Part shown: in pieces, positions 17,688 to 56,639 of the stretch
Position numbering within the stretch: position 1 is the stretch's first letter
Layout: every line of letters starts with the position of its first letter
Origin: Cherax quadricarinatus
Lineage: Eukaryota > Arthropoda > Malacostraca > Decapoda > Parastacidae
Assembly: GCF_038502225.1 (NCBI RefSeq)
Contig: NC_091303.1
Coordinates: 28,134,635-28,198,634 of the forward strand
Reading direction: 5' to 3'
DNA: 64,000 nt
Translations under genes and position numbers: made by a program
Notes under the pieces: generated by a model
The model's database searches: none
What the model saw: only the letters and a program-made list of their open reading frames with translations
What the model was told of the DNA's origin: nothing

Positions 17688-20600
17688 GTGTTGATGATGG
17701 GGAGGGTGTTGATGATGGTGAGGGTGTTGATGATGGTGAGGGTGTTGATGATGGTGAGGGTGTTGATGATGGTGAGGGTGTTGATGATGGGGAGGGTGTT
17801 GATGGGGAGGGTGTTGATGATGGGGAGGGTGAGTGGTGAGGGTGTTGATGATGGGGAGGGTGTTGATGATGGGGAGGGTGTTGATGATGGTGAGGGTGTT
17901 GATGATGGTGAGGGTGTTGATGATGGTGAGGGTGTTGATGATGGTGAGGGTGTTGATGATGGTGAGGGTGTTGATGATGGTGAGGGTGTTGATGATGGGG
18001 AGGGTGTTGATGATGGTGAGGGTGTTGATGATGGTGAGGGTGTTGATGATGGTGAGGGTGTTGATGATGGTGAGGGTGTTGATGATGGTGAGGGTGTTGA
18101 TGATGGTGAGGGTGTTGATGATGGTGAGGGTGTTGATGATGGTGAGGGTGTTGATGATGGTGAGGGTGTTGATGATGGTGAGGGTGTTGATGATGATGTT
18201 GGATGAGGGTGTTGATGATGGTGAGGGTGTTGATGATGGTGAGGGTGTTGATGATGGGGAGGGTGTTGATGATGGTGAGGGTGTTGATGATGGTGAGGGT
18301 GTTGATGATGGTGAGGGTGTTGATGATGAGGGTGTTGATGATGGTGAGGGTGTTGATGATGGGGAGGGTGTTGATGATGGGGAGGGTGTTGATGATGATG
18401 ATGATGGATGATGGGGAGGGTGTTGATGATGAGGGTGGTGAGGGTGTTGATTGAGGGTGTTGATGGTGAGGGTGTTGATGGTGAGGGTGTTGATGATGGG
18501 GAGGGTGTTGATGATGGGGAGGGTGTTGATGATGGGGAGGGTGTTGATGATGGTGAGGGTGTTGATGATGGGGAGGGTGTTGATGATGGGGAGGGTGTTG
18601 ATGATGGGGAGGGTGTTGATGATGGGGAGGGTGTTGATGATGGTGAGGGTGTTGATGATGGGGAGGTTGATGATTGAGGGTGTTGATGATGGGGAGGGTG
18701 TTGATGATGGTGAGGGTGTTGATGATGGGGAGGGTGTTGATGATGGTGAGGGTGTTGATGATGGTGAGGGTGTTGATGATGGGGAGGGTGTTGATGATGG
18801 GGAGGGTGTTGATGATGGTGAGGGTGTTGATGATGGTGAGGGTGTTGATGATGGTGAGGGTGTTGATGATGGTGAGGGTGTTGATGATGAGGGTGTTGGG
18901 AGGGTGTTGATGATGGTGAGGGTGTTGTTGTTGATGGTGAGGGTGTTGATGATGGGGAGGGTGTTGATGATGGTGAGGGTGTTGATGATGGTGAGGGTGT
19001 TGATGATGGTGAGGGTGTTGATGATGTTGATGGGAGGGTGTTGATGATGGTGAGGGTGTTGATGATGGTGATGATGGGGAGGGTGTTGATGATGGTGAGG
19101 GTGTTGATGATGGGGAGGGTGTTGATGATGGGGAGGGTGTTGATGATGGGGAGGGTGTTGATGATGGTGAGGGTGTTGATGATGGGGAGGGTGTTGATGA
19201 TGGTGAGGGTGTTGATGATGGTGAGGGTGTTGATGATGGTGAGGGTGTTGATGATGGGGAGGGTGTTGATGATGGGGAGGGTGTTGATGATGGTGAGGGT
19301 GTTGATGGTGAGGGTGTTGATGATGGTGAGGGTGTTGATGATGGTGAGGGTGTTGATGATGGTGAGGGTGTTGATGATGGTGAGGGTGTTGATGATGGTG
19401 AGGGTGTTGATGAGGGTGTTGATGGTGAGGGTGTTGATGATGGTGAGGGTGTTGATGGTGAGGGTGTTGATGATGGGGAGGGTGTTGATGATCGGGAGGG
19501 TGTTGATGATGGTGAGGGTGTTGATGATCGGGAGGGTGTTGATGATGGTGAGGGTGTTGATGATGGTGAGGGTGTTGATGATCGGGAGGGTGTTGATGAT
19601 GGTGAGGGTGTTGATGATCGGGAGGGTGTTGATGATGGTGAGGGTGTTGATGATGGTGAGGGTGTTGATGATGGTGAGGGTGTTGATGATGGTGAGGGTG
19701 TTGATGGTGAGGGTGTTGATGATGGTGAGGGTGTTGATGATGGTGAGGGTGTTGATGATGGTGAGGGTGTTGATGATGGTGAGGGTGTTGATGATGGGGA
19801 GGGTGTTGATGATGGTGAGGGTGTTGATGATTGATGATGGGGAGGGTGTTGATGATGGTGAGGGTGTGAGGGTGTTGATGATGGTGAGGGTGTTGATGAT
19901 GATGAGGGTGTTGATGATGGTGAGGGTGTTGATGATGGTGAGGTTGATGATGGTGAGGGTGTTGATGATGGTGAGGGTGTTGATGATGGGGAGGGTGTTG
20001 ATGATGGGGAGGGTGTTGATGATGGTGAGGGTGTTGATGATGGTGAGGGTGTTGATGGTGAGGGTGTTGATGATGGGGAGGGTGTTGATGATGGGGAGGG
20101 TGTTGATGATGGGGAGGGTGTTGATGATGGTGAGGGTGTTGATGATGGGGAGGGTGTTGATGATGGGGAGGGTGTTGATGATGGGGAGGGTGTTGATGAT
20201 TGATGATGGGGAGGGTGTTGATGATGGGGAGGGTGTTGATGATGGGGAGGGTGTGATGATGTTGATGATGGTGAGGGTGTTGATGATGGTGAGGGTGTTG
20301 ATGATGGTGAGGGTGTTGATGATGGTGAGGGTGTTGATGATGGGGAGGGTGTTGATGATGGGGAGGGTGTTGATGATGGGGAGGGTGTTGATGATGGTGA
20401 GGGTGTTGATGATGGTGAGGGTGTTGATGATGGGGAGGGTGTTGATGATGGTGAGGGTGTTGATGATGGTGAGGGTGTTGATGATGGTGAGGGTGTTGAT
20501 GATGGTGAGGGTGTTGATGATGGTGAGGGTGTTGATGATGGTGAGGGTGTTGATGATGGGGAGGGTGTTGATGATGGGGAGGGTGTTGATGATGGTGAGG

Positions 20601-23600
20601 GTGTTGATGATGAGGGTGTTGGTGAGGGTGTTGATGATGGTGAGGGTGTTGATGATGGGGAGGGTGTTGATGATGGGGAGGGTGTTGATGATGGGGAGGG
20701 TGTTGATGATGGGGAGGGTGTTGATGATGGGGAGGGTGTTGATGATGGGGAGGGTGTTGATGATGGGGAGGGTGTTGATGGATGATGATGAGGGTGTTGG
20801 TGAGGGTGTTGATGATGGTGAGGGTGTTGATGATGAGGGTGTTGATGATGGGGAGGGTGTTGATGATGGGGAGGGTGTTGATGATGGGGAGGGTGTTGAT
20901 GATGGTGAGGGTGTTGATGATGGGGAGGGTGTTGATGATGTTGAGGGTGTTGATGATGGTGAGGGTGTTGATGATGGTGAGGGTGTTGATGATGGTGAGG
21001 GTGTTGATGATGGGGAGGGTGTTGATGATGGTGAGGGTGTTGATGATGGTGAGGGTGTTGATGGTGAGGGTGTTGATGGTGAGGGTGTTGATGGGGAGGG
21101 TGTTGATGATGGTGAGGGTGTTGATGATGGTGAGGGTGTTGATGATGGTGAGGGTGTTGATGATGGTGAGGGTGTTGATGATGATGGTGAGGGTGTTGAT
21201 GATGGTGAGGGTGTTGATGATCGGGAGGGTGTTGATGATGGTGAGGGTGTTGATGATGGTGAGGGTGTTGATGATGGTGAGGGTGTTGATGATGGTGAGG
21301 GTGTTGATGATGGTGAGGGTGTTGATGATGGGGAGGGTGTTGATGATGGTGAGGGTGTTGATGATGGTGAGGGTGTTGATGATGGTGAGGGTGTTGATGA
21401 TGGTGAGGGTGTTGATGATGGTGAGGGTGTTGATGATGGTGAGGGTGTTGATGATGGTGAGGGTGTTGATGATGGTGAGGGTGTTGATGATGGTGAGGGT
21501 GTTGATGATGGTGAGGGTGTTGATGATGGTGAGGGTGTTGATGATGGTGAGGGTGTTGATGATGGTGAGGGTGTTGATGATGGGGAGGGTGTTGATGATG
21601 GTGAGGGTGTTGATGATGGTGAGGGTGTTGATGATGGTGAGGGTGTTGATGATGGGGAGGGTGTTGATGATGGGGAGGGTGTTGATGATGGTGAGGGTGT
21701 TGATGATGGTGAGGGTGTTGATGATGGTGAGGGTGTTGATGATGGTGAGGGTGTTGATGATGGTGAGGGTGTTGATGATGGTGAGGGTGTTGATGATGGT
21801 GAGGGTGTTGATGATGGTGAGGGTGTTGATGATGGTGAGGGTGTTGATGATGGTGAGGGTGTTGATGATGGGGAGGGTGTTGATGATGGGGAGGGTGTTG
21901 ATGATGGTGAGGGTGTTGATGATGGGGAGGGTGTTGATGATGGTGAGGGTGTTGATGATGGGGAGGGTGTTGATGATGGTGAGGGTGTTGATGATGGGGA
22001 GGGTGTTGATGATGGTGAGGGTGTTGATGAAGGAGAGGGTGTTGATGATGGTGAGGGTGTTGATGATGGTGAGGGTGTTGATGATGGGAGGGTGTTGATG
22101 ATGGTGAGGGTGTTGATGATGGTGAGGGTGTTGATGATGGTGAGGGTGTTGATGATGGTGAGGGTGTTGATGATGGTGAGGGTGTAGATGATGATGGATG
22201 ATGATGGTGAGGGTGTTGATGATGGTGAGGGTGTTGATGATGGTGAGGGTGTTGATGATGGTGAGGGTGTTGATGATGGTGAGGGTGTTGATGATGGTGA
22301 GGGTGTTGATGATGGGGAGGGTGTTGATGATGGTGAGGGTGTTGATGATGGTGAGGGTGTTGATGATGATGATGAGGGTGTTGATGATGGTGAGGGTGTT
22401 GATGATGGTGAGGGTGTTGATGATGGTGAGGGTGTTGGTGAGGGTGTTGATGATGGGGAGGGTGTTGATGATGGTGAGGGTGTTGATGATGGTGAGGGTG
22501 TTGATGATGGTGAGGGTGTTGATGATGGGGAGGGTGTTGATGATGGTGAGGGTGTTGATGATGGGGAGGGTGTTGATGATGGTGAGGGTGTTGATGATGG
22601 TGAGGGTGTTGATGATGGTGAGGGTGTTGATGATGGGGAGGGTGTTGATGGTGAGGGTGTTGATGATGGTGAGGGTGTTGATGATGATGATGGTGAGGGT
22701 GTTGATGATTGAGGGTGTTGATGATGAGGGTGTTGGATGAGGGTGTTGATGATGGTGAGGGTGTTGATGATGGTGAGGGTGTTGATGATGGTGAGGGTGT
22801 TGATGATGGGGAGGGTGTTGATGATGGGGAGGGTGTTGATGATGGTGAGGGTGTTGATGATGGGGAGGGTGTTGATGATGGGGAGGGTGGATGAGGGTGT
22901 TGATGATGGGGAGGGTGTTGATGATGGGGAGGGTGTTGATGATGGGGAGGGTGTTGATGATGGGGAGGGTGTTGATGATGGGGAGGGTGTTGATGATGGG
23001 GAGGGTGTTGATGATGGGGAGGGTGTTGATGATGGGGAGGGTGTTGATGATGGGGAGGGTGTTGATGATGGGGTGTTGATGATGGGGAGGGTGTTGATGA
23101 TGGGGAGGGTGTTGATGATGATGATGGGGAGGGTGTTGATGATAGGGAGGGTGTTGATGATGGGGAGGGTGTGATGATGAGGGTGTTGATGATGGGGAGG
23201 GTGTTAATGATGGGGAGGGTGTTGATGATGGTGATTGTGTTGATGATGGTGAGGGTGTTGATGATGGTGAGGGTGTTGATGATGGGGAGGGTGTTGATGA
23301 TGGGGAGGGTGTTGATGATGGGGAGGGTGTTGATGATGGGGAGGGTGTTGATGATGGGGAGGGTGTTGATGATGGTGAGGGTGTTGATGATGGTGAGGGT
23401 GTTGATGATGGTGAGGGTGTTGATGATGGTGAGGGTGTTGATGATGGTGAGGGTGTTGATGATGGTGAGGGTGTTGATGATGGGGAGGGTGTTGATGATG
23501 GGGAGGGTGTTGATGATGGTGAGGGTGTTGATGTTGATGATGGTGAGGGTGTTGATGATGGTGAGGGTGTTGATGATGGTGAGGGTGTTGATGATGGTGA

Positions 23601-26600
23601 GGGTGTTGATGATGGTGAGGGTGTTGATGATGGTGAGGGTGTTGATGATGGTGAGGGTGTTGATGATGGTGAGCGGGTTGATGATGGGGAGGGTGTTGAT
23701 GATGGGGAGGGTGTTGATGATGGGGAGGGTGTTGATGATGGGGAGGGTGTTGATGATGGGCAGGGTGTTGATGATGGGCAGGGTGTTGGTGATGGGGAGG
23801 GTGTTGATGATGATGGGGAGGGGGTTGTTGATGATGGGGAGGGTGTTGATGATGGGGAGGGTGTTGATGATGGGGAGGGTGTTGATGGGGAGGGTGTTGA
23901 TGATGGTGAGGGTGGTGATGGGGATGATGATGGTGAGGGTGTTGATGAGGGTGGATGGTGAGGGTGTTGATGATGGGGAGGGTGTTGATGATGGTGAGGG
24001 TGTTGATGATGGTGAGGGTGTTGATGATGGTGAGGGTGTTGATGATGGTGAGGGTGTTGATGGGGAGGGTGTTGATGATGGTGAGGGTGTTGATGATGGG
24101 GAGGGTGTTGATGATGGTGAGGGTGTTGATGATGGGGAGGGTGTTGATGATGGTGAGGGTGTTGATGATGGTGAGGGTGTTGATGATGGGGAGGGTGTTG
24201 ATGATGGGGAGGGTGTTGATGATGGGGAGGGTGTTGATGATGGGAGGGTGTTGATGATGGGGAGGGTGTTGATGATGGGAGAGTGGATGATGGGGAGGGT
24301 GTTGATGATGGGGAGGGTGTTGATGATGGGGAGGGTGTGATGATGATGGGGAGGGTGTTTATGATGGGGAGGGTGTTGATGATGGTGAGGGTGTTGATGG
24401 TGATGATGGGTGAGGGTGTGATGATGATGGTGAGGGTGTTGATGATGGGGAGGGTGTTGATGATGGTGAGGGTGTTGATGATGGTGAGGGTGTTGATGAT
24501 GGGGAGGGTGTTGATGATGGGAGGGTGTTGATGATGGGTGAGGGTGTTGATGATGGGGAGGGTGTTGATGATGGGGAGGGTGTTGATGATGGGGAGGGTG
24601 TTGATGGAGAGGGTGTTGATGATGGGGAGGGTGTTGATGATGGGAGGGTGTTGATGATGGGGAGGGTGTTGATGATGGGGAGGGTGTTGATGATGGGGAG
24701 GGTGTTGATGATGGGGAGGGTGTTGATGATGGGGAGGGTGTTGATGATGGTGAGGGTGTTGATGATGGGGAGGGTGTTGATGATGGGGAGGGTGTTGATG
24801 ATGGGGAGGGTGTTGATGATGGGGAGGGTGTTGATGATGGGGAGGGTGTTGATGATGGGGAGGGTGTTGATGATGGGGAGGGTGTTGATGATGGTGAGGG
24901 TGTTGATGATGGGGAGGGTGTTGATGATGATGATGAGGGTGTTGATGATGGGGAGGGTGTTGATGATGGTGAGGGTGTTGATGATGGGGAGGGTGTTGAT
25001 GATGGGTGAGGGTGTTGATGATGGGGAGGGTGTTGATGATGGGGAGGGTGTTGATGATGGGGAGGGTGTTGATGATGGGGAGGGTGTTGATGATGGGGAG
25101 GGTGTTGATGATGGGGAGGGTGTTGATGATGGGGAGGGTGTTGATGATGGTGGGAAGGTGTTGAGGGTGTTGATGGTGAGGGTGTTGATGATGGGGAGGG
25201 TGTTGATGATGTGTGAGGGTGTTGATGATGGTGAGGGTGTTGATGATGGTGAGTTGATGTGTTGATGATGGGGAGGGTGTTGTTGAGGGTGTTGATGGGA
25301 GATGATGGTGAGGGTGTTGATGATGGGAGGGTGTTGATGATGAGGGTGGATGATGGTGAGGGTGTTGATGATGGTGGGGTTGTTGTTGATGGGGAGGGTG
25401 TTGATGATGGGGAGGGTGTTGATGATGGTGAGGGTGTTGATGATGGTGAGGGTGTTGTGTTGATGATGGGGAGGGTGTTGATGATGGTGAGGGTGTTGAT
25501 GGGGAGGGTGTTGATGATGGTGGGGAGGGAGGGTGTTGATGATGGGGAGGGTGTTGATGATGGGGAGGGTGTGATGATGATGGGGAGGGTGTTGATGATG
25601 GGGAGGGTGTTGATGATGGGGAGGGTGTTGATGATGGGGAGGGTGTTGATGATGGGGAGGGTGTTGATGATGGGGAGGGTGTTGATGATGGGGAGGGTGT
25701 TGATGATGGGGAGGGTGTTGATGATGGGGAGGGTGTTGATGATGGTGAGGGTGTTGATGATGGGGAGGGTGTTGATGATGGGGAGGGTGTTGATGATGGG
25801 GAGGGTGTTGATGATGGGGAGGGTGTTGATGATGGGGAGGGTGTTGATGATGGGGAGGGTGTTGATGGGGAGGGTGTTGATGATGGAGAGGGTGTTGATG
25901 ATGGGGAGGGTGTTGATGATGGGGAGGGTGTTGATGATGGTGAGGGTGTTGATGATGGGGTGTTGATGAGGGTGTTGATGATGAGGGTGTTGATGATGGT
26001 GAGGGTGTTGATGATGGTGAGGGTGTTGATGATGGGGAGGGTGTTGATGATGGTGAGGGTGTTGATGATGGTGAGGGTGTTGATGGTGAGGGTGTTGATG
26101 ATGGGGAGGGTGTTGATGATGGGGAGGGTGTTGATGATGGTGAGGGTGTTGATGATGGTGAGGGTGTTTGATGATGAGGGTGTTGATGATGGTGAGGGTG
26201 TTGATCGGGATGGTGTTGATGATGGTGAGGGTGTTGATGATGGGGAGGGTGTTGATGATGGTGAGGGTGTTGATGATGGTGAGGGTGTTGATGATGGGGA
26301 GGGTGTTGATGATGGGGAGGGTGTTGATGATGGTGAGGGTGTTGATGATGGGGAGGGTGTTGATGATGGGGAGGGTGTTGATGATGGTGAGGGTGTTGAT
26401 GATGGTGAGGGTGTTGATGATGGGGAGGGTGTTGATGATGGTGAGGGTGTTGATGATGGGGAGGGTGTTGATGATGGGGAGGGTGTTGATGATGGGGAGG
26501 GTGTTGATGATGGGGAGGGTGTTGATGATGAGGGTGTTGATGATGAGGAGGGTGTTGATGATGGGGAGGGTGTTGATGATGGGGAGGGTGTTGATGATGG

Positions 26601-27910
26601 GGAGGGTGTTGATGATGAGGGTGGATGATGGTGAGGGTGTTGATGATGGGGAGGGTGTTGATGATGGGGAGGGTGCTGATGAGAGGGTGTTGATGATGGG
26701 GAGGGTGTTGATGATGGGGAGGGTGTTGATGATGGGGAGGGTGTTGATGATGGGGAGGGTGTTGATGATGGGGAGGGTGTTGATGATGGTGAGGGTGTTG
26801 ATGGTGAGGGTGTTGATGATGGGGAGGGTGTTGATGATGGGGAGGGTGTTGATGATGGTGAGGGTGTTGATGATGGGGAGGGTGTTGATGATGGTGAGGG
26901 TGTTGATGATGGTGAGGGTGTTGATGATGGGGAGGGTGTTGATGATGGGGAGGGTGTTGATGATGGGTGAGGGTGTTGATGATGGGGAGGGTGTTGATGA
27001 TGGATGAGAGGGTGTTGATGATGGGGAGGGGTGATTGAGGGTGTTGATGATGGTGAGGGTGTTGATGATGGGGAGGGTGTTGATGATGGTGAGGGTGTTG
27101 ATGATGGTGAGGGTGGATGATTGATGATGGTGAGGGTGTTGATGATGGTGAGGGTGTTGATGATGGATGGGGAGGGTGTTGATGATGGGGAGGGTGTTGA
27201 TGATGGGGAGGGTGTTGATGATGGTGAGGGTGTTGATGATGGTGAGGGTGTTGATGATGGTGAGGGTGTTGATGATGGTGAGGGTGTTGATGATGGTGAG
27301 GGTGTTGATGATGGTGAGGGTGTTGATGATGGTGAGGGTGTTGATGATGGTGAGGGTGTTGATGATGGTGAGGGTGTTGATGGTGAGGGTGTTGATGGTG
27401 AGGGTGTTGATGATGGTGAGGGTGTTGATGATGGGGAGGGTGTTGATGATGGTGAGGGTGTTGATGATGGGGAGGGTGTTGATGATCGGGAGGGTGTTGA
27501 TGATGGTGAGGGTGTTGATGATGGGGAGGGTGTTGATGATGGGGAGGGTGTTGATGATGGGGAGGGTGTTGATGATGGGGAGGGTGTTGATGATGGGGAG
27601 GGTGTTGATGATGGGGAGGGTGTTGATGTTGGTGAGGGTGTTGATGATGGTGAGGGTGTTGATGATGGGGAGGGTGTTGATGGTGAGGGTGTTGATGATG
27701 GTGAGGGTGTTGATGATGGGGAGGGTGATGGATGAGGGTGTTGATGATGGGGAGGGTGTTGATGGTGAGGGTGTTGATGATGGGGAGGGTGTTGATGGGG
27801 AGGGTGTTGATGATGGGGAGGGTGTTGATGATGGTGAGGGTGTTGATGATGGGGAGGGTGTTGATGATGGGGAGGGTGTTGATGATGGGGAGGGTCTTGA
27901 TGATGGGCAG
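17688..27910. repeat. 18-bp G/T/A-rich satellite, 10.2 kb
   Basis: About 560 copies of GAGGGTGTTGATGATGGT/GGG (18 bp), with scattered 12-, 14- and 15-bp forms that shift frame. The plus strand is almost free of C; exceptions are GATCGGGAG variants (for example 19493, 19529, 19583, 19619, spaced 36 and 54, so a 90-bp block is duplicated) and single CGGG, GGGCAGG and GGTGCTG forms. Because 18 is divisible by 3, very long frames appear: a 3,431-aa minus frame (HHQHPH, SSTPSP, INTLPI) and plus frames of MVRVLM or DDGEGV. Reading switches among all three peptide phases at each indel, which argues against a protein. The right edge fuses to the 62-bp array through GGCAGGTTG. Confidence 0.98.
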
Positions 27911-51894: not shown

Positions 51895-52365
51895 TCCTAT
51901 GGGTTTTTCTATTCTCGGAGCCCCGCCCTAGGCCAGATTCGTCTGGTGTCTGGCTGGTCAACCAGGCTGTTGCTGTTGTCCGCCGACCCACATATTCATC
52001 ACAGCCTGGCTGATCTGGCACCTGGTGAAGATACTTGTTCAATTACCTCTTGAAGACTTCTACACTTGCACCAGCAGTGTTTGTGATATCTTCTGGTAAG
52101 ATGTTGAATAGTCTGGGTCCATGCATGTTGAACATTAAAATGGTATAAAATACCGACAGGTTGTTATGTTGCATATGTGTCTTACCTAACTCCATGCATG
52201 TTGATACATGGCCACCGCACCCCTGCTTTTTAATGGTTTATTTTGCACTTCCTCCCATATCTCTCACTCCAATATATTGTTATGGCAGTGTGCAGGTTTG
52301 GGGTAAAACCCTCAGGTACTTTCCAGGTATAAATTATCATGTCTCTCTCTCTCCTCCTCTCCAGT
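51895..52365 (-). pseudogene. Type I LINE 3' region
   Basis: Minus reading: LEERRERDMIIYTWKVPEGF then PNLHTAITIYWSERYGRKCK, then INMHGPRLFN, the LPEDITNTAGAS-like C-terminus and the tail GAGCCCCGCCCTAGGCCAGA (plus-strand words) at 51915. It is split by a 59-bp insertion at 52132-52190. The plus-strand type IV LINE starts at its 5' edge, 52366. Confidence 0.82.
52132..52190. mobile_element. 59-bp insertion with a 14-bp target duplication
   Basis: TCCATGCATGTTGA occurs exactly on both sides (52118-52131 and 52191-52204), inside the type I LINE where other copies have a single version. The insert joins ATTAAAATGGTATAAAATAC and CCGACAGGTTGTTA to TGTTGCATATGTGTCTTACC TAAC. Both pieces occur in the 403-bp element at 54.1-55.1 kb, but the second is inverted relative to the first. 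It is therefore a tiny rearranged end of that element. Confidence 0.85.
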
Positions 52366-53515
52366 CACTAGTGGCGTTCCACAAGGATCAGTTTTAGGCC
52401 CTCTCTTGTTCATAATTTACATTAATGACCTTGATGAAGGGATTACGAGTGACATGAGTAAGTTTGCTGATGATACAAAGATACGCCGTATAATTCACTC
52501 TGAGGAGGATATCAATGAACTCCAGGACGATTTGGACAAATTAATGTCTTGGTCTGAAAAATGGCAGATGAAGTTCAATGTGGGTAAGTGTAAGGTACTT
52601 GCCCTTGGTAATGAAAATAACCCTCGAAGCTATAATCTGGGTGAAGTAGAGCTTGATCATACAGAATGTGAAAAAGACTTGGGAGTCATGGTAAGCAGAA
52701 ATCTAAAGCCAAGACAGCAGTGCCTTAGTGTGCGCAACAAGGCCAACAGATTACTTGGATTTATATCAAGAAGTATAAGTAACAGAAGTCCAAAAGTTAT
52801 TTTACAGCTCTATACATCACTAGTGAGGCCTCATTTAGATTATGCTGCTCAGTTTTGGTCCCCTTACTACAGGATGGATATAGACTCATTAGAGAACATA
52901 CAGAGAAGAATGACTAAAATGATTTACTGTGTAAGGAACCTCCCGTATGAAGATAGACTCAAAGCCTTAAATCTCCACTCTCTGGAGAGGCGTAGAATGA
53001 TGGGAGATATCATTGAAGTGTATAAGTGGATGACGGGCATAAACAAGGGAGATGATTGAGACACTTATGCAGCATATGGGAATCGTTTCCTGAATAAAGA
53101 TTCCCATATGCTGCATAAGTGTCTCAATCTTCAACATGTCGGTTTTTCAAACCATTCATCACAACAAGGGAGATATTAATAAAGTACTGATGGTGTCGAA
53201 CCAGGTAAGAACCAGGATTAATGGATTTAAGTTGGATAAATTTAGATTTAGAAAGGACATAGGTAAGTACTGGTTTTCTAACAGAGTTGTAGATACGTGG
53301 AACAGTCTTCCCAGTGGGGTGATAGAGGCTAGGTTTATACCAGCTTTAAGAAGAGACTGGACAAATATATGAGTGGGAGGGGCTGGGTTTGATTGGTGTC
53401 ATTGGGTACGGGAGTTATTTCTTGGGAAGCTTTAGGTAGATGTCGTTTTGATAAGGACCTGCCTCACATGGGCCAGTAGGCCTTCTGCAGTGTTCCTCCA
53501 TTCTTATGTTCTTAC
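52366..53515 (+). pseudogene. Type IV (CR1-like) LINE, RT motif B to 3' tail
   Basis: Starts [20 protein letters not shown] (motif B), then KFADDTKIRRIIHSEEDI (FADD catalytic box), WSEKWQMKFNVGKCKVLALG, CEKDLGVMVSRNLKPRQQC, LYTSLVRPHLDYAAQFWSPY, LHSLERRRMMGDIIEVYKWM. The frame is open from 52406 to 53059, unusually well kept. A 109-bp insertion at 53054-53162 ends it; the RT C-terminus (FRFRKDIGKYWFSNRVVDTW) resumes to 53372. The 3' UTR ends GGGCCAGTAGGCCTTCTGCA and CATTCTTATGTTCTTA. It is younger-looking than the type I copies. The endonuclease and N-terminal RT are absent. Confidence 0.9.
53054..53162. mobile_element. 109-bp foldback insertion with a 12-bp target duplication
   Basis: AACAAGGGAGAT flanks the insert at 53042-53053 and 53163-53174; the LINE reading frame continues on either side. 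The insert consists of perfect 31-bp inverted arms (53054-53084 and 53099-53129; outer end GATTGAGACACTTATGCAGC) around a 14-bp loop GTTTCCTGAATAAA, plus a 33-bp tail with CAACATGTCGGTTTTTC. The CGTTTCC..AATAAAGAT core resembles CGTTTCG..AATAAAGAT next to the hammerhead-like motif at 55.04 kb, so it is probably a related family. No ORF. Confidence 0.9.
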
Positions 53516-54074
53516 ATGTTTAAGACTTTAAGCGGGAGTACAGAAATTTTGTCGTAAGGAATCCTTGCCCAACAGATGCAACCGACATGAAAACAGTAAG
53601 AGGTCCTGGAAACAGCCGGCACCTCGCCTTGTTTCCTCTATAACATCACAAAGGTTTGCTCACACAATAATGGTAGGTAGCAAAAATTATCAAATGGCTC
53701 GAGAAAACCTTATTCATCACCATTTTAATATCTTGTATGTTCTGCATTTTGTCAATAAAAGAGCCACAGTAAATAAAAACTTGCTAGAATTAATTAATCG
53801 ACTGCAACATTTTAACGTAAACTTGGGTTGTACTGGACATATGTTAGACGTAGCTGTAGTGAGGTCAAAGACGATGTGTTACAATTACTGGTAACTTTGA
53901 AATTTGATAAGACAAAGTACAGTATATAAAGAAGTTGGGAAGAATCAAGAGAACAGGAAATAACAGGGAACATAACAAAGAGGACAGACCAACCCATTCT
54001 ACAAAGAAGGAAGTGAAGCTCCTAAAAAACAGGAGAGTAAAAACCACAGGAGGTGAGAGCACATCCTCAAGATA
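53516..54074. other. Unassigned spacer
   Basis: AT-rich sequence with frames of up to 109 aa on plus and 80 aa on minus, none with a recognisable motif. No repeat seen. Confidence 0.5.
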
Positions 54075-54170
54075 CACAAGGGTATCTTGGTACAGACCTG
54101 CAATCATTACCTAACAACCTGTCGGTAGGTAAGACACATATGCAACAGTTAGGTATCTTTATTTCGAAAC

Positions 54171-54198
54171 GTTTCGCCTACACAGTAGGCTTCTTCAG
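54171..54198 (-). ncRNA. Hammerhead-like core, unit 1
   Basis: On minus: CTGAAGA, A, stem GCCTAC-TGT-GTAGGC, then GAAAC. This matches CUGANGA, stem II and GAAA of a hammerhead ribozyme, apart from one extra A before stem II. I could not place stem III and the UH cleavage site convincingly in CGTTTCGAAATAAAG. Possibly active, possibly only reminiscent. Confidence 0.45.
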
Positions 54199-54573
54199 TC
54201 GAGTACAGAAAAGTTGATAGAAGCGGAAGATACTTGAAGACGATGTAATCAGTCCATCACCCTTAAAGCTTTGAGGTGGTCAGTCCCTCAGTCTGGAGAA
54301 GAGCATTGTTCCGTTGTCTGAAACAATATGAAGTTGAAGTGACAGAATGGGGCTTTATATAGTGCCAGGAGGTGAGACGTAGGTTGCTTTGGGAGGGCAG
54401 GTCCTTCTCAAACCCAGCCGTTCTCACTAGTAGAGGTTGTCGAAGTTGATGGTCTGTACCAAGATACCCTTGTGTTGCAGTGTCTGACAGAATGAACATT
54501 AAAATGGTATAAAATACCGACAGATTGTTAGGTAAGACACATATGCAACAGTTAGGTATCTTTATTTCGAAAC

Positions 54574-54601
54574 GTTTCGCCTACACAGTAGGCTTCTTCA
54601 G
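54574..54601 (-). ncRNA. Hammerhead-like core, unit 2
   Basis: Identical to the unit 1 core, 403 bp downstream. Two such cores in tandem would release a unit-length (about 403-nt) RNA if both cleaved. Confidence 0.45.
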
Positions 54602-55020
54602 TCGAGTACAGAAAAGTTGATAGAAGCGGAAGATACTTGAAGACGATGTAATCAGTCCATCACCCTTAAAGTTTTGAGGTGGTCAGTCCCTCAGTCTGGA
54701 GAAGAGCATTGTTCCGTTGTCTGAAACAATATGAAGTTGAAGTGACAGAATGGGGCTTTATATAGTGCCAGGAGGTGAGACGTAGGTTGCTTTGGGAGGG
54801 CAGGTCCTTCTCAAACCCAGCCGTTCTCACTAGTAGAGGTTGTCGAAGTTGATGGTCTGTACCAAGATACCCTTGTGTTGCAGTGTCTGACAGAATGATC
54901 ATTAAAATGGTATAAAATACCGACAGATTGTTAGGTAAGACACATATGCAACAGTTAGGTATCTTTATTTCGAAACTTTTCGCCTACACAGTAGGCTTCT
55001 ATCAACTTTTCTGTACTCGA

Positions 55021-55048
55021 CTGAAGAAGCCTACTGTGTAGGCGAAAC
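55021..55048 (+). ncRNA. Hammerhead-like core, inverted copy
   Basis: The same core on the plus strand, in the right arm region of the foldback. The opposing left-arm copy is truncated at GTAGGCTTCT and carries CGAAACTTTTCG instead of CGAAACGTTTCG. Confidence 0.45.
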
Positions 55049-55170
55049 GTTTCGAAATAAAGATACCTAACTGTTGCATATGTGTCTTACCTAACAATCT
55101 GTCGGTATTTTATACCATTTTAATGTTCAACCTGTCGGTATTTTATACCATTTTAATGTTCAATCTCAAG

Positions 55171-56639
55171 AGTACTGCTGAAACACCCACCACTGCATCA
55201 CCATACAAATATCATCTTCAAAAATTTGCTTCAGATGGGACAACTGACACATAACTGTGTAATATAATGTTTTGTAATGTTACATCAGTTATTAGCAGAA
55301 ATATGTATAATGCATTTTTAAATATATGTAAGTAATAATGGGTAAAACAGAACCTTGCAGTTTACTTTTTACCTATTCAATCCTGATCAAGCCCAGGGCA
55401 CAAGTTATAAGGTACAGTACTGAACTTCAATAATCATTATAACATATGAATTATTACAATAGCACTATTCCTTACATGTGTCTTCCCCTAATAAATATGA
55501 AGAATTGTGAATGCTGCATCATCAGCTGGAGTTGACACAATCAACAATGCCACCACACACATCGACCTAACTTAATTTTAACGAAGTCCAACTCTAACTT
55601 GTGCATATGTTGCATTAATTAAGATCAGCCAATGTTATTTTGTTGACCTGAGTCCATCCTAATTCATCTCTAGGTTCAACTTATTGCCCATATCCTATTT
55701 TGTTAGGTAAGACACATATCCTATTTTGTTTACTCGTACGATTTTCTCGTTCTCAAACTATTTATATTAAGTACCTTTATTTTCTGTTTCTTCATAGTTG
55801 CTATTATTGAAATATTTCTTTTCGTTTTCGATGCAAGTTGCTTGACCGTCATTGGTGCCGCAGGAACTATGATCCCACAAAAATACAGAGAGATGTGAAC
55901 CTTATAAGTAGAGAGATAAAGACACGTAACCATAAAGACAAACCCACAAATATCAAACTTTTTCTATGACACGAAGGTAGCCTGAGTGCTTCAACCCAAG
56001 GACAAGAACCGCCACAACAAACATCCACAAAAGAAAAAGAGTAAGCATCACACCTGAACAAATCCAAACTATTGGACCCTGCAGGCCGCGTCACTAACTA
56101 TGCAACACTGACTCACCCAGGTAGGAAACATTAAGTACAGATTTCCCCGTCACAACCTGAAGGAAAAAAACATCACTCACCTGAACGAAAAAGCTTCCTG
56201 GAAATGGGAACAGGTGCTCAAGAAGAGCAAAACTATTACCCGCGTTTAATTAAACTTCAATAGAAATCAACAACAAAAAAAAGCAGTCATGCTACACAGC
56301 AGAGATGGAACTGGATCCTATCAACGTGCCCAGAGTCTTGAAACCTAAGCGATGCACGAGCAATCACAACAATCATGGCAAAGGACAACAAGTCATGATT
56401 CAGTACGTGGATCAGTTACAGTCAGGTCCGACATACCTGAACCTACCTGTTACCTACGTCTACTCGTTGCACCTCTGCCTTTCATTAGGGGTATTATGCA
56501 TTATCTGCAGACTCCCGTTCTCAAGAGTGATTTCAGTATACAGATTTAGTATAGATTATGATTTGCCTTTTTCCGTCTGCGTTCCAGGGAATACAATTTC
56601 AGAACCTCGGGGCTTTTCTAATAATACAAGCGTTTGAGT
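55171..56639. other. Unassigned sequence
   Basis: AT-rich, apparently low-repeat. Frames of up to 110 aa (56305-56637 on plus) lack recognisable motifs. A minus frame at 55730-55933 ends KIKVLNINSLRTRKSYE, which recalls the start of a LINE endonuclease, but too little is present. One micro-insertion at 55705 is listed separately. Confidence 0.5.
55705..55714. mobile_element. Possible 10-bp terminal micro-insertion with a 16-bp duplication
   Basis: CATATCCTATTTTGTT is present at 55689-55704 and again at 55715-55730, separated by AGGTAAGACA. With flanking bases the centre reads GTTAGGTAAGACACATAT, which equals the terminus of the 403-bp element (54528-54545). It may be a minimal insertion of that end with microhomology, or a chance duplication. 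Confidence 0.4.

Follow-up and report, generated by a model that had tools for sequence, protein, structure and literature searches.

The DNA at positions 54075-55170 of the window (the whole 64,000-nucleotide stretch of Cherax quadricarinatus that was analysed) raises the question of what kind of mobile element a tandem, protein-less repeat with hammerhead-like motifs is, and how it enters the genome. The initial annotation had read it as a candidate retrozyme. The question is of wider interest, since both the mode of integration of Penelope-like elements (PLEs) and the mobiliser of retrozymes are left open in PMC7229834 and PMC11167929 (here and below, citations by accession refer to the available sections of a paper).

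Anatomy of the array and of neighbouring insertions

Analysis of the window showed that the core of the locus is a fold-back tandem array at 54126-55129, in which two units of 403 bp are followed by 69 bp of another unit and then by an inverted arm. The two direct copies and the truncated third reported initially (54126-54528, 54529-54931 and 54932-55000) were thereby confirmed, and so was the 99-bp fold-back, which is an exact inverted match between 54126-54224 and 54995-55093. In an alternative register the inverted match covers 142 nt at 99% (54486-54627 against 54995-55136). The two arms are joined via a 6-bp microhomology, GCTTCT, at 54995-55000. The parts of the array are as follows, S and L denoting the short and the long end site described below.

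54126-54528, sense strand minus: 403-bp unit 1
54529-54931, sense strand minus: 403-bp unit 2, 99.5% to unit 1 (two differences)
54932-55000, minus: partial third unit, 69 bp, where the arm starting at S has its inner end
54995-55129, sense strand plus: inverted arm starting at the long (L) site
54355-54361, with a second copy at 54758-54764, minus: TATA-box-like TATATAA of the sense strand, sense position 210
55056-55061, plus: AATAAA directly 3' of stem I of the hammerhead motif, upstream of the S and L sites; coding PLE ends also have AATAAA
55094-55129, plus: "tail" between the S and L end sites, as defined in PMC11167929
55104-55116, plus: conserved hairpin GGTATTTTATACC inside the tail
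54115-54125 (left) and 55128-55138 (right): target site duplication flanking the array, CAACCTGTCGG, of which 9 bp are unambiguous

The frames of the unit (two of 105 and one of 70 amino acids) gave no Pfam match at E ≤ 1, in agreement with the initial view that no credible protein is present, and the telomerase-like reverse transcriptase (RT) and the GIY-YIG endonuclease are by this search not encoded in the 403-bp unit. It is for this reason that we speak of a satellite of PLEs and not of a PLE in the strict sense.

The span 54075-55170 had been taken as one element. Only the part at 54126-55129 is the array, while the pieces surrounding it probably belong to an older small relative, in whose tail the array would be nested; the nested duplications suggest the boundaries listed below. 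The 33-bp repeat at 55095-55163 would be explained by this position of the array inside the tail of the older relative. Two more insertions with both ends lie nearby.

54073-54125, plus: putative left part of the older relative, from the nested duplications
55130-55164, plus: putative right part of the older relative, extending to the L site of that element, from the nested duplications
54066-54072 (left) and 55165-55171 (right): 7-bp duplication CTCAAGA of the older relative
52129-52190: 62-bp insertion of the same kind with two ends, L on the left and S on the right
52118-52128 and 52191-52201: its 11-bp duplication TCCATGCATGT
53054-53163: 110-bp two-ended insertion (S plus L) of a related family, splitting a LINE-type RT frame
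53043-53053 and 53164-53174: its duplication ACAAGGGAGAT

The LINE-type RT frame (RVT_1) that is interrupted by the 110-bp PLE-type insertion lies at 52307-53372, and when 53054-53163 is removed together with one repeat, the empty site so reconstructed restores an unbroken LINE frame of 314 amino acids. The 62-bp insertion is the smallest complete one of its kind that we observed.

End sites, target duplications and arm orientation

Copies of the array end at two fixed sites around the conserved hairpin, and not at ribozyme cuts. The outer end at S falls after ...GTGTCTTACCTA plus 0-5 nt, and the outer end at L approximately 36 nt beyond S, after ...CTGTCGGTATTTTATACCATTTTAATGTTCA. In the window array the S end is at 54126 and the L end at 55129, and the duplication reads (CA)ACCTGTCGG. 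The 21-mer TGTCGGTATTTTATACCATTT around the hairpin is identical in the 403 family and in the PLEs coding for GIY-YIG, and it has 32,716 matches in the genome against none for the control. The tail of the coding PLE, TTGTGTCGGTATTTTATACCATTTATTTCCA, has 21 consecutive bases in common with the tail of the 403-bp repeat. By eye, the hairpin is changed on both sides in other families, namely to GGTTTttcAAACC (53141-53153), GGTAattcTACC (L046) and GGTTCtctGAACC (L109). We take the hairpin region flanked by S and L to be the region where reverse transcription would start.

Frangieh and colleagues (PMC11167929) have described a lizard PLE protein that cuts and extends both strands in vitro. Reverse transcription begins there at two adjacent internal sites, between which the tail lies, and the top and bottom strands did not evidently differ in the site used; the tail structure is reported for "most" genomic copies. 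The S and L ends appear, from their sequence positions, to correspond to these two start sites. In rotifers, Arkhipova and colleagues (PMC3846280) have described inverted pLTRs, duplications and a tail that is optionally present on one inverted pLTR. The tail is termed optional in both papers.

A DNA search with one unit gave at least 186 matches in the genome (a 3.95-Gb assembly of 7,334 contigs), coming from 40 scored of 612 candidates. For a scan of the ends we used the window, the loci L031-L051, L072 and L073, and 12 pairs of end pieces, with anchors beyond which no further unit was found; every inverted pair of ends within 7.5 kb was tested, and a duplication was counted from 9 bp upwards. 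Of 37 inverted end pairs, 29 were of type LS, six of type LL and two of type SS, and the 21 pairs with a duplication were all LS (21/29, against 0/6 LL and 0/2 SS), leaving eight LS pairs without a duplication of at least 9 bp. If duplications were blind to type, the chance that all 21 fall on LS pairs would be 3e-4, where pairs from nested loci are not fully independent. Pairing ends across loci gave duplications in only 5 of 1502 cases (LS 3/731, LL 2/512, SS 0/259). The duplications are about 9-15 bp long. Genome copies with flanking duplications, a check suggested by the initial annotation, are indeed found.

Three more S plus L insertions with duplications lie beyond the result of the script: L062/L063, the inner one in L073, and 53054-53163. 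The first of these was missed since its S end resembles a unit, and it was found by eye and then checked. Seven of the 12 end-piece pairs (those beginning at L054, L058, L060, L064, L066, L074 and L076) continue into more units at one side or at both, and no clean second end could be seen by eye, yet they were scanned by the script. L049 has S plus L but by script no duplication. Among one-sided or irregular copies, judged by eye, L032, L034, L035 and L041 have one S end and L040 and L045 one L end; L032 and L045 are without a clean second S or L end. L072/L073 had been guessed to be a coding copy, and the fetched pieces hold only ORF-less insertions.

The coding elements that were sampled show the same pairing of ends. 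A search of the genome with the GIY-YIG profile gave 14,992 candidates, 150 of which were scored, and in L051 a frame of 787 amino acids carries both RVT_1 and GIY-YIG. Among the 120 listed of 316 protein relatives of the coding PLE, five carry an organism name, and these come from Cherax, Amphibalanus, Penaeus (two) and Oratosquilla. One S and one L end were found in all ten coding insertions analysed (L051 and nine inverted GIY-YIG pairs), a sample that is biased towards two-sided insertions by the choice of inverted pairs and that seems to represent a single lineage. Eight of the ten have a duplication of 10-14 bp; the script found none in C19 and C2, the latter having one of about 7 bp by eye. 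In the cross-pair control none of 90 pairs reached 9 bp, and two had 7-8 bp. The sampled 403 copies do not form portions of a single larger coding element, the finding that would have spoken for an ordinary protein-coding transposon; they have their end sites and tail in common with the coding PLEs. By eye, a 403-bp array has also inserted into the GIY-YIG coding region of a PLE copy in L046.

In 14 of 21 loci (20 larger loci and the window) plus hits lie on the left and minus hits on the right, the array having two arms with the sense 3' ends pointing outward and the heads joined in the centre, and in the remaining seven (L034, L035, L038-L041 and L045) the units run in a single direction; the two-armed form is therefore usual, not universal. 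Neighbouring motifs less than 1 kb apart were minus-plus in 28 cases, plus-minus in one and on the same strand in 15 among the first 100 genome matches listed, and GIY-YIG neighbours less than 8 kb apart were minus-then-plus in 27 of 27 cases among the 150 scored. We entered 15 centre junctions from 14 loci by hand, excluding L040 and the 428-bp array of L044 as nested or diverged. On average 2.3 bp are common to both arms at these junctions, compared with 0.67 bp expected for random joins, and this mean was not reached in any of 200,000 simulations. An insert is present at two junctions, of 1 base at one and of 13 at the other. Both arms stop at the same unit position in L033b; at the remaining 14 of the 15 junctions the positions differ. 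A frame of 599 amino acids in L040 that starts in the repeat has no Pfam match and looks by eye like a LINE ORF1 that was entered by the repeat.

The hammerhead motif in ORF-less and coding copies

The motifs proposed initially, CTGAAGA, a 6-bp stem II and GAAAC, are present three times, at 54171-54198 (minus), 54574-54601 (minus) and 55021-55048 (plus), with an A between CTGAAGA and stem II. A relaxed descriptor (CTGANGA and GAAAC separated by 9-24 nt that contain a stem of 3 bp or more) found exactly these three and no other in the 64 kb. The Rfam models, which had been suggested along with the descriptor, gave nothing at the gathering threshold across the 64 kb, and at E ≤ 10 they gave 24 matches to miRNA and other RNA families within 53900-55300, none of them a hammerhead. 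We regard these weak matches as artefacts of the palindrome, most of them being on the fold-back around 54950-55070. With stem I included, the minimal hammerheads are:

54164-54202, minus: unit 1, predicted cleavage between 54168 and 54167
54567-54605, minus: unit 2, predicted cleavage between 54571 and 54570
55017-55055, plus: inverted arm, predicted cleavage between 55051 and 55052

On the sense strand the motif reads UCGA-CUGAAGA-A-GCCUAC-UGU-GUAGGC-GAAAC-GUU-UCGA. Folding of the 55-nt core gave only stem I (UCGA/UCGA) and stem II, with a 3-nt loop II and no stem III, an arrangement that we read as type I with an open-ended stem I. Reviews describe PLE repeats as carrying such minimal type I hammerheads without helix III, in the sections considered here. 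Cleavage is predicted by this model at GAAACGUU^UCGA, unit position 42/43. When two copies of the motif were folded jointly, a different and longer pairing, GAAACGUUUC, was obtained, and a dimer model is therefore not claimed.

The exact motif pattern of the family has 33,108 matches in the genome (16,366 + 16,742) while the reversed pattern has none, and the exact 39-nt motif is kept in 129 of the 136 sampled 403-type units that cover it. Two doubts had been attached to the motif. The extra base before stem II is largely explained, as an A follows A9 in 171 of 172 motif instances in the loci searched with a pattern that does not demand it, the remaining instance having a G; the unclear cleavage site is largely accounted for by the predicted site and stem I given above. 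Stem I covaries between families in the fetched loci (UCGA/UCGA, GGA/UCC, UGGC/GCCA, AGGA/UCCU and UGA/UCA). The table behind this statement has 31 rows, three of which are the same instances matched twice; stem I has at most 2 bp in six rows and stem II is absent from three. Its pattern demanded AATAAA and the extra A, so it lends no support to the conservation of these two, and it did not match the CTTGAAAAA lineage.

That the third copy breaks inside the motif had been taken as the end of a self-cleaved RNA. The break, however, lies in the CUGAAGA strand at unit position 64-69, which is 22-27 nt away from where cleavage is predicted, and in the 15 junctions 3 of 30 breaks fall in the motif, where 2.9 are expected. 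The position of this break in the motif thus looks like coincidence, and the interpretation is not upheld.

The sampled coding PLEs have a changed core. The motif was found in 14 of 20 coding 3' flanks, as CTTGAAAAAGC in 13 and as CTTGAGAAAGC in one, and six flanks are without it; the ends with the motif are L097-L101, L103-L105, L110, L111 and L113-L116, and 13 of the 14 have the core CTTGAAAAA. The core CTGANGA, including CUGAAGA, occurs in none of the 20 coding 3' flanks searched, which were drawn from the 150 scored of 14,992 candidates and are dominated by one lineage. In most of the sampled coding copies the position that we take to be G8 is altered. The coding copies L046 and L031 carry TTGATAAA. 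The 403 family, unlike the sampled coding copies, retains the CTGAAGA core, and we regard this difference between ORF-less units and coding copies as a lead only.

Mode of insertion and relation to known systems

Polymorphisms of the units give some information about the template. The left arm of L042 carries 262A but not 280C, its right arm 280C but not 262A; the outer units of L034 and L036 have 100A, which their inner units lack; and in L049 the two outermost units of each arm have 262T, which the inner ones lack. The differences within L034, L036 and L042 are polymorphisms known from other loci. These mixtures favour multimeric or mixed RNA templates at the four loci, and a multimeric template is probably used at least sometimes, while the homogeneous runs in L035 and in the right arm of L042 (12 identical full units) would fit a circular template equally well. 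In L043 both arms have the rare variants 106A and 322A, which also occur in part of L040, and in L044 both have the private variants 166T and 207T, as from one source. Because AATAAA lies before S and L, the templates would have to read through it.

Judged from these sequence features, the 403-bp repeat is probably a non-autonomous, ORF-less PLE satellite that inserts by two-sided target-primed reverse transcription, starting at S on one strand and at L on the other. The templates would be read-through transcripts of arrays, or circles derived from them, and the RT/GIY-YIG protein of a coding PLE would act in trans by binding the satellite RNA. This protein would cut the target in a staggered fashion, giving rise to duplications of about 9-15 bp, and both exposed 3' ends would prime cDNA, one from S and the other from L. 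Each cDNA would be extended through part of a unit or through several units, until the two meet head to head and are joined by a few bases of microhomology. The ribozyme may have a role in these steps; in the in vitro system (PMC11167929) it is dispensable for insertion and cleaves only with protein.

Three other explanations have to be weighed against this one. If the repeat were a canonical metazoan retrozyme, the hammerhead would cut multimers to 403-nt monomers, the circles of which would template rolling-circle cDNA. The unit size, the tandem form, the lack of protein and duplications above 4 bp agree with that class (PMC7229834), and the identical units of L042 and L035 and the frequent preservation of the exact 39-nt motif point in the same direction. 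The motif without stem III does not match the canonical type I motifs of the class, which have helix III and loop contacts, however, the insertions end at S and L instead of at the cut site, and the mixed polymorphisms of L034, L036, L042 and L049 are impossible from one monomer circle without template switching, so we consider this explanation unlikely. Of the retrozyme reading there remains a protein-less tandem hammerhead retroelement with Penelope-like ends and target duplications.

The palindromic arms could also result from self-priming, in which a single cDNA or antisense transcript snaps back on itself and is copied into inverted arms, as proposed for rotifer Penelope on an antisense template (PMC3846280). 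This would suit the variants that both arms have in common in L043 and L044 as well as the equal arm ends of L033b. A copied arm should nevertheless repeat the outer end, while the pairs with duplications have one S and one L, matching the positions of the two in vitro start sites (PMC11167929); the arms moreover end at different unit positions in all other junctions, and they differ in their variants in L042 and L036. The pairing of S with L favours two-sided target-primed synthesis, and snap-back copying appears quite improbable to us. An ordinary satellite that owes its dispersal to unequal exchange and segmental duplication, and whose motifs are meaningless, would account for C853 (L038/L039), where more than 25 units are arrayed in one direction, but hardly for precise ends with target duplications at dispersed sites, for the empty site at 53054-53163 or for covarying stems, and we give it very little credence. 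The long array of C853, with its variable short stretch near unit position 221-230, may reflect satellite expansion after insertion.

Small PLE hammerhead variants reportedly cleave as dimers, work that is said to go back to Lunse 2017 and to Cervera and de la Pena 2014. As described in the available sections of reviews, these variants resemble the present motif in being minimal, without stem III and in very many copies.

The closest likeness is to the GIY-YIG PLEs, Poseidon of Anolis (PAc) and Penelope of Adineta vaga, which have a tail of about 30-40 nt, target duplications and inverted pLTR arms, PAc also having a hammerhead in its repeat (PMC11167929, PMC3846280). The 403 satellite differs from them in being ORF-less and in repeating its units at least 12 times in one insertion (L042), and from the sampled coding PLEs of the same genome in its CUGAAGA core. 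With the metazoan non-LTR retrozymes (Cervera and de la Pena 2020, PMC7229834) it has in common protein-less tandem hammerhead units in the 150-450 bp range and duplications above 4 bp, whereas its minimal hammerhead without stem III, TATA-like box, AATAAA and inverted S/L-ended arms set it apart; the same paper separates minimal hammerheads of the PLE kind from the canonical type I hammerheads of retrozymes. Plant LTR retrozymes are also non-autonomous and hammerhead-bearing, but have a type III hammerhead, LTR/PBS/PPT and 4-bp duplications (PMC7229834), in contrast to the type I-like motif and 9-15 bp duplications found here.

A more general proposal, about which we are evenly divided, is that PLE insertion is obligately two-sided and site-paired, with two reverse transcriptases at one staggered cut and S and L used one per strand. 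The "optional" tail would then be the signature of the L strand, present once per complete insertion, and tandem ribozyme satellites would ride this machinery and be the ones to keep an intact hammerhead core, rather than the coding elements. The rule of one S and one L is not stated in the considered sections of PMC7229834, PMC7761336, PMC6155905, PMC11167929, PMC10454600, PMC3846280, PMC8490949, PMC8969392 and PMC12910113, and in the in vitro work as given in those sections of PMC11167929 we found no test of S/L pairing within a single insertion. The rule makes a countable prediction for any PLE-rich genome as well as for the in vitro system already established. The tail that ORF-less hammerhead arrays have in common with coding PLEs is evidence, at the level of sequence, for the proposed link between PLEs and retrozymes.

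Apart from the elements described above, other short-period tandem arrays fill roughly half of the window or slightly more. An array of about 10 kb with an 18-bp G-rich unit extends over 17688-27906, and the GC skew is near 1 over 18-28 kb.
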